DNA of 34,753 bases from positions 1 to 34,753 of the forward strand of contig JALVFK010000099.1 in assembly GCA_027030065.1 (NCBI GenBank), in the 5' to 3' direction. This document shows, in pieces, positions 10,301 through 28,027 of the stretch. The stretch comes from Desulfurococcales archaeon (GTDB taxonomy: Archaea > Thermoproteota > Thermoprotei_A > Sulfolobales > WANQ01). The translations under genes were made by a program, and so were the position numbers. A model generated the notes under the pieces. The model saw nothing but the letters and a program-made list of their open reading frames with translations, had not been told where the DNA came from and did not search any database. The number at the start of each line of letters is the position of its first letter. Position 1 is the first letter of the stretch.

Positions 10301-10738
10301 TTAGGCTGTGATGACCTGTGTTTCGGCTGAACTTAATGATGTTTCGCCACGGACTGAGCTTCTAGGCTTACTACTCCGGTCTGCATAGTTTACTGTGTAG
10401 TCTTTTGGTTTTAGTTTTCCTAGTATGTAGTTGAATGCTTTCCATGGGTTGCTTTTTGCTCCACATGTATATATGTCTATTGTAGCATACTGGTATTCAA
10501 CCCATGTGTGGAGAGCAATATGGCTCTCCAAGACAAGAGCAATAACCGAAACACCACCCTTCAAACCACCAAAACGCCAAGACCTAACATCAACTAAAGT
10601 CATGTTAGCGAGTCTTGCTGCCTCCACTACGATATTCTTGAGTTTCTCTTCATCCACTAAGATTTCTGGGTCTATGTCATATAAGTTCCCGTAGACATGT
10701 CTTCCAACAATTCTATCCTCGAGTCTTTCTCTCATCAT
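10301..10738 (-). CDS. Arginine decarboxylase proenzyme (crenarchaeal AdoMetDC-fold type)
   Basis: [29 protein letters not shown]...[41 protein letters not shown]...NYADRSS; matches the pyruvoyl ArgDC/SpeD family with the ES|HIALHTW processing site. Confidence 0.88.
10308..10357 (+). ncRNA. Candidate C/D-box guide sRNA (antisense to 3' end of the ArgDC gene)
   Basis: C GTGATGA (10308-10314), guide cctgtgtttcgg, D' CTGA (10327-10330), spacer actta, C' ATGATGT (10336-10342), guide ttcgccacgga, D CTGA (10354-10357); flanked by ggct...gctt. Confidence 0.8.
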
Positions 10739-26623: not shown

Positions 26624-27523
26624 ATCCTTTATCGTTTATCATATACTCAACGCGAAGTATTATTCGCACTTATAAAACTTTACAGTAAGCATGGTCGAAT
26701 GATAAAGAGTAGAGACATAGCCGAAATGGTGGGCAAAGACGAGGGAACGGTGAGAAACATAATAGCGAGTCTCAAAGCCATGGGATTTATTGAAAGCAAG
26801 ACAGGTCCACGTGGAGGCTATATGCCAACTCTTAAAGCATTCGAGTACATTAGAATGCCGATATATGCTCATACATATGAGGCGATAAGAGTTACAAAAG
26901 ACGGAAATGAATTGGACATAGGTATATTGGGGATAGAATTACTTGACATAACGAGCCCCATGGGTAATAGAGCGGTACTAAAAGTAGCGGGAGACCTAGG
27001 ATTAATCAAACCGGGAGACAATATAACTCTAGGTCCGACGCCTTCTAATAGACTAGTTATAGAAGGCAAAGTACTATTTGTTGATGAGTTGAGAAAAGAA
27101 ATAGTAATAGACATAAACAGAATAGTAAGCATCCCCCGAGAACCAGTAATAAACATAGCATCAAGAAAACTAGTAACCGTGCCATCAGAAGCAAGTATTC
27201 GTGACGTAGCAAAAGTATTATTCAAACACGGAATACGTGGCGCCCCAGTATTAGACCACAACGGCAACGTCATAGGCCTAATAACCACAGCCGATATAGC
27301 TAAAGCCGTTACCGAAGACAACATAGAAGCAAATGTACAAGAATATATGAGAAAAGAAGTCGTCAAAATAAGAGATAACGAAGATATCCTCGATGCAATA
27401 AAGCTAATGATAGATAAAGGCATAGGTAGACTCCTCGTAATAAACTCCTCCGGAAAACCAGTCGGCATAATAACTCGTACAGATATCCTTAGAAGAATTG
27501 CTGGCCTAGAAAAAATAATATAG
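26624..27523 (+). CDS. HTH-CBS domain transcriptional regulator; probable non-AUG start
   Basis: HTH (SYTQREVLFALIKLYSKHGRMIKSRDIAEMVGKDEGTVRNIIASLKAMGF) followed by paired CBS domains. In-frame homology extends 25 codons upstream of ATG 26699 to ATC 26624, 6 nt after SD GAGGTGA (26611-26617). Confidence 0.75.
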   Translation: MLYRLSYTQREVLFALIKLYSKHGRMIKSRDIAEMVGKDEGTVRNIIASLKAMGFIESKTGPRGGYMPTLKAFEYIRMPIYAHTYEAIRVTKDGNELDIGILGIELLDITSPMGNRAVLKVAGDLGLIKPGDNITLGPTPSNRLVIEGKVLFVDELRKEIVIDINRIVSIPREPVINIASRKLVTVPSEASIRDVAKVLFKHGIRGAPVLDHNGNVIGLITTADIAKAVTEDNIEANVQEYMRKEVVKIRDNEDILDAIKLMIDKGIGRLLVINSSGKPVGIITRTDILRRIAGLEKII

Positions 27524-27542
27524 CAACATAGTTACGGCAGTT

Positions 27543-27596
27543 GTGATGAATACTCCCCAACCAGACACAATGGATGAAGACAATTCCTTTAGCTGA
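27543..27596 (+). ncRNA. Candidate C/D-box guide sRNA (dual 16S guide)
   Basis: C GTGATGA (27543-27549), guide atactccccaac, D' CAGA (27562-27565), C' TGGATGA (27571-27577), guide agacaattcctttag, D CTGA (27593-27596). Guides complementary to 16S UGGGGAGUA and UAAAGGAAUUG (recalled). Confidence 0.75.
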
Positions 27597-27702
27597 GGCA
27601 GTTAGTGAAAGGCTTGTTTTACCCACACAAGCAGAGAAATACGTTGAACTAGTAAAGCTGGTTTTCCGGGATAACTTTCTAGTAATAATGGTATTGGGCT
27701 AA
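27574..27702 (+). CDS. Short ORF (42 aa), possible truncated gene
   Basis: MKTIPLAEAVSERLVLPTQAEKYVELVKLVFRDNFLVIMVLG*; protein-like, but start overlaps the candidate sRNA. Confidence 0.3.
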   Translation: MKTIPLAEAVSERLVLPTQAEKYVELVKLVFRDNFLVIMVLG

Positions 27703-27763: not shown

Positions 27764-28027
27764 ATGGTAAAGAGCGTTGCAGTTGAGAAAGTAGAGAAAA
27801 AATACATTGTTAAGAAGGGGGAGGACATATTCTACGTTGAACTAGCTAGAACAGTTGATGGTAAACCAATAGTATCTGTATTCAAGGAGACCCGTCATAC
27901 AATTGTAAAGATGGAGGGTAGACGTAAGGAGAAGGAAGATTGGGAGTACGACTTAGATGATGCTGAAGAGATAGAGTATGAGAAGCTACCAGAAAATATT
28001 AGAAGAGCTTTAAGCCAGCTCATCTAA
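27764..28027 (+). CDS. Hypothetical protein (87 aa)
   Basis: MVKSVAVEKVEKKYIVKKGEDIFYVELARTVDGKPIVSVFKE...; 18-nt convergent overlap with the Lhr gene. Confidence 0.65.
   Translation: MVKSVAVEKVEKKYIVKKGEDIFYVELARTVDGKPIVSVFKETRHTIVKMEGRRKEKEDWEYDLDDAEEIEYEKLPENIRRALSQLI

Follow-up and report, generated by a model that had tools for sequence, protein, structure and literature searches.

The sRNA gene and its surroundings

The window analysed here is a 34,753-nucleotide contig (JALVFK010000099.1, C99) from the 1.86-Mb metagenome-assembled genome of a Desulfurococcales archaeon. On its forward strand, a gene at 26699..27523 encodes an HTH-CBS protein, which combines a winged helix of the HrcA type with two CBS domains. 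After a gap of 19 nt from the stop codon of this gene lies a C/D-box sRNA on the same strand, extending from C box to D box at 27543..27596 and reading in full GTGATGA-ATACTCCCCAAC-CAGA-CACAA-TGGATGA-AGACAATTCCTTTAG-CTGA. The C box GTGATGA (27543..27549) fits the consensus RUGAUGA and leads into the D' guide ATACTCCCCAAC (27550..27561) and the D' box CAGA (27562..27565), and a degenerate C' box, TGGATGA (27571..27577), precedes the D guide and the D box CTGA (27593..27596). The D guide CAATTCCTTTAG (27581..27592) consists of a core, CAATTCCTTTA (27581..27591), plus G27592. The original prediction of a 54-nt C/D-box sRNA just after the HTH-CBS stop, with GTGATGA and CTGA boxes and degenerate D' and C' boxes, is borne out by direct reading in its boxes, length and position. 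The arrangement is that of a double guide: a C box (RUGAUGA) and a D box (CUGA) separated by about 50-60 nt, between which lie D' and C' boxes that are degenerate in the window's genus.

In the list of open reading frames of the window, none of at least 60 amino acids overlaps the sRNA. The folding energy is not unusual (z = 0.56) and there is no stable terminal stem, a result that has no discriminating power for archaeal C/D RNAs of this short kind. An imperfect 14-nt direct repeat ending in GGCAGTT flanks the sRNA at 27529-27542 and 27590-27603 of the window; the downstream GGCAGTT is missing in sister genomes.

The genome encodes fibrillarin (1.3e-105) and, directly upstream of the fibrillarin gene, Nop5 (6.8e-75), as expected of a genome with archaeal double-guide C/D-box sRNAs. 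The TATA-like stretch AATAATATAG at the CBS stop was considered as a promoter of the sRNA's own and rejected, since it falls within coding sequence and stands at a different distance from the C box in the sister genus (G003). Another TATA-like stretch, TTATATAG, precedes the downstream gene at 27764, so the transcript of the CBS gene most likely carries the sRNA. Archaeal C/D sRNAs are as a rule processed out of the transcripts of their neighbours (PMC7994747). The precursor is probably contained in a read-through transcript of the HTH-CBS gene, from which the sRNA would be cut out.

Guide pairing with 16S rRNA

The host genome and its three family members lack a 16S gene by Rfam model and pattern search, and complementarity was therefore tested on the rRNA of relatives. 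In each of four rRNA operons from the order, the D guide matches best at UUAAAGGAAUUG, with 11 contiguous Watson-Crick pairs and one G-U, and the D' guide at UGGGGAGUA, with 9 contiguous pairs. Numbering checked on E. coli rrsH places these segments at 911-922 and 884-892. Positions 27551-27559 of the D' guide pair with U884-A892; C27557, the fifth base upstream of D', lies opposite G886. Pairing of the D guide extends over U912-G922, with an additional G-U at U911, and T27588, the fifth base upstream of D, lies opposite A915. Upstream of both D and D', then, at least 9 contiguous pairs to the relatives' 16S cover the N+5 base. Of 30 16S sequences from the order, 28 have an identical D' target segment and 26 an identical D target segment.

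The 11-nt complement with one G-U and the 9-nt complement had both been proposed beforehand, with approximate E. coli positions and with targets near G886 and A915; the complements recur in the four operons, and rrsH confirms U884...A892, A915 and G922 as well as the N+5 register. The claim that the sRNA addresses both strands of helix 27 survives in part. In the E. coli secondary structure helix 27 comprises 885-912, and A915 is part of a central-pseudoknot strand, 915-918. G886 lies within the 5' strand of the helix and the D' target alone is a helix 27 strand. The D target overlaps the helix at 911-912 and otherwise runs through 913-922, which takes in the pseudoknot's 3' strand and the beginning of helix 28; A915 is thus 3' of helix 27. 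The appropriate wording is "5' strand of helix 27 and adjoining central-pseudoknot strand". A reading in which the RNA is no methylation guide at all was set aside, as the guides find their best matches in the rRNA operon at 884-922 with the N+5 register kept.

Could such a sequence arise by chance within a 3' untranslated region? The C and D boxes are short, and about 0.06 single-guide candidates are expected per window (12 in 200 shuffles). When the window is searched for a C, a D' and a D box combined with a linked pair of 9-bp rRNA matches, the sRNA site is the only one returned, and the same search finds 0 sites in 200 dinucleotide shuffles of the window. When the guides alone are shuffled, a cruder and weaker control that ignores contiguity, an equally good linked pair appears in 5/400 cases, which means that conservation, not a single-sequence statistic, carries the strong evidence. 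Cross-family conservation, fixed spacing, guide-target co-change and synteny, described below, all contradict a chance resemblance, which we regard as exceedingly improbable.

Conservation and synteny

The sRNA is found in all three genomes of the window's genus. It was also reached in a second genus of the family (G003), through the neighbouring CBS gene and independently of any similarity between the RNAs. There the two guide cores are identical to those of the window and the D' box is a canonical CTGA, while five bases are lost from the spacer and the flanks are divergent. A search of 197 genomes of the order with a sequence model (R1) yields 49 sequences, from 48/197 genomes, with both guide cores at a fixed distance from the boxes, a near-invariance of the cores that is inflated by the selection of the aligned homologues through those same cores. 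The length of the D'-to-D spacer varies among homologues; the guides and their spacing to the boxes are constant. About half of the genomes of the order have no R1 match or a weak one. With a broader model (R2), the double guide is also seen in other classes of the phylum (G481, G372, G397, G417 and G421).

The upstream CBS gene is a conserved neighbour in families f1 and f7. In seven genomes of f7 the RNA adjoins an orthologous CBS gene, 47-54% identical to that of the window; one of the seven has the RNA on the opposite strand. This synteny points to common descent. A plasmid search for the CBS gene gave distant partial matches only. A separate observation concerns the contig JALVIT010000114.1 (G139:C114; loci L036 and L070), which is of the window's genus, with a CBS gene 97% identical, and is binned in a metagenome-assembled genome of another family that carries its own copy of the sRNA on C80; the contig is probably mis-binned.

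Guide-target co-change and guide exchange

In one genus of the Sulfolobaceae (f11 g34) the 16S reads CUGGGGAAUACGG, with A890 instead of G; in G065 and G095 the target is GGGGAAUACGG. The D' guide of G065, G095 and G186 is TATTCTCCAG, in which a T faces A890 and restores the pair; a second change in this guide gives a G-U at 887, and G886 still faces C at N+5. The 16S evidence comes from G065 and G095, with G186 contributing its guide sequence only, and the co-change is a single evolutionary event. Base pairing would predict just such a change.

Might only the D guide be catalytically productive, with the D' guide mainly an anchor, so that A915 is methylated and G886 is not? The D' pairing of the window's sRNA is just 9 bp long and stands next to a degenerate box (CAGA/NNGA), and the first two positions of the D' box vary widely, GA alone being invariant. 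However, C'/D' normally supports methylation in archaea, homologues keep both the base opposite G886 and the distance from guide to D' box, and it is in the D' guide that the co-change is found. Of 735 guide interactions in a published set, 16 are considered non-productive, though from target mismatch (PMC4644070). Taken together, a D-only activity appears unlikely, and methylation through both guides is the reading that we retain.

In Sulfolobaceae, the copies seen have TCCTTTAAGT as D guide, which shifts the predicted target to U912. The sRNA at 2500-2551 of G041 and G032 has the same D' guide and the same target, G886, as that of the window and differs in this D guide, TCCTTTAAGT, with its predicted target U912; these sRNAs were matched by R2, whose training set contained one such sequence. 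In G041, which we take to be S. acidocaldarius, a separate guide, AAATTCCTTTAACTGA, is aimed at A915. In genus g4 of family f3 (L112, L128, L135 and L136), the A915 D guide is retained and the D' guide is replaced by ACTCCACCCCT; for most members the 16S match of this new guide lies about 22 nt downstream of G916. The f3 g4 sRNAs are a case of guide-module exchange, a process described in PMC4644070. Where the D target itself is altered, in f9 g10 (16S CUCAAAGG) and f5 g25 (CUUUAAGG), model searches return no convincing homologue. Two pattern matches sought there as co-changed guides were rejected: they are without C boxes and look like chance.

Relation to known sRNAs

The best Rfam match of the window's sRNA is the C/D family RF01146 (sR15), at 23.7 bits (E 0.0098), below the gathering cut-off of 40 bits. 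Searched over the order, RF01146 passes its cut-off in one genome only, that of Aeropyrum pernix (as we take G027 to be), at the site also found by R1. This member has the guide cores TACTCCCCA and CAATTCCTTTAG, the same as in the window and at the same spacing. The RF01146 match in S. acidocaldarius has unrelated guides. Judging from these guides, the RF01146 model seems to mix unrelated double guides in a heterogeneous family (L096, L147). The sRNA is thus not new in kind, since in A. pernix it falls into a family that Rfam has already catalogued.

The double guide is also carried by G018, presumably Ignicoccus hospitalis. The C/D sRNAs of I. hospitalis were sequenced by Dennis et al. 2015 (PMC4644070), who single out helices 3, 18 and 27 as the most densely methylated region of 16S. 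The double guides discussed there share with the window's sRNA their architecture, targets within 100 nt of each other and the helix 27 hotspot. There, many conserved sites are reached by otherwise unrelated sRNAs, whereas here a guide pair persists across families. The "A915" assigned in that source to sR17 of N. equitans was considered as E. coli A915 and rejected, since the source uses alignment numbering, in which its G507 corresponds to E. coli G530.

Archaeal C/D guides are held to have a fast turnover, with published sites often shared through otherwise unrelated sRNAs. Against this background a double guide that stays together in many families, with its register fixed and one base co-changing, is unusually well conserved, and singles out helix 27 and the central pseudoknot as a place where selection acts on both pairings jointly.

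Methylation guide or folding chaperone

These observations favour an archaeal double-guide C/D-box sRNA predicted to direct 2'-O-methylation at G886 and A915, to which we assign a probability of about 0.9. Expression, processing, methylation and any effect on folding are inferred. The C/D k-turn and the C'/D' k-loop of the RNA would bind L7Ae, Nop5 and fibrillarin. The D' guide would then pair with the 5' strand of helix 27 and direct methylation of G886, and the D guide would pair with 911-922 and direct methylation of A915, which lies in the central-pseudoknot strand. The two sites are 29 nt apart, and one particle could hold both nascent 16S segments at once. Both pairings are incompatible with a closed helix 27 or a closed central pseudoknot, which suggests that the particle acts on nascent rRNA and would have to leave before these structures close.

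Could folding be the real function, with methylation secondary? The D' guide takes in the 5' arm of helix 27, to which yeast U3 is bound in the 90S particle, and the D guide includes 915-918, which form the pseudoknot's 3' strand; besides contacting this arm, the eukaryotic U3 snoRNA acts on the central pseudoknot as well (PMC5354517). Conservation of the pairing over many families would suit a U3-like chaperone for helix 27 and the pseudoknot, and such roles have been proposed for archaeal double guides (PMC4644070). Yet the N+5 register is strictly kept, as methylation requires; many genomes of the order are without a detectable copy, which means that the RNA is not essential everywhere; and the D register shifts to U912 in Sulfolobaceae while the D' guide is exchanged in family f3. 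A mainly chaperoning sRNA is accordingly doubtful, and a methylation guide remains the preferred account.

A more specific and equally doubtful proposal is that this conserved crenarchaeal double guide functionally stands in for U3, timing the closure of helix 27 and the pseudoknot. It would do so by keeping the helix's 5' arm and the pseudoknot's 3' strand together, and methylation of G886 and A915 would record correct assembly. One review states that neither U3 nor modification-independent folding RNPs are known in archaea (PMC8339473). The locus offers a concrete place to ask whether archaeal guides chaperone the folding of the small subunit.

Additional observations

The 16S gene of A. pernix has about 700 extra nt, an intron near E. 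coli position 908, between the D' and D targets. In this rRNA operon (L146) the intron is thus flanked by the targets of the two guides of one sRNA, and the sRNA particle could act before or after splicing.

The window contains a second likely C/D-box sRNA at 10308-10357 (+), with the boxes GTGATGA, CTGA, ATGATG and CTGA, antisense to the ORF at 10301-10738 (-) over the 3' end of that frame. Against Rfam sR9 it scores 25.3 bits, under the cut-off of 36. In the rRNA operons of four relatives, its D guide forms 9 contiguous pairs with 23S CCGUGGCGA; the match of its D' guide, CUUGAAACACGGG, lies some 26 nt upstream of that segment.
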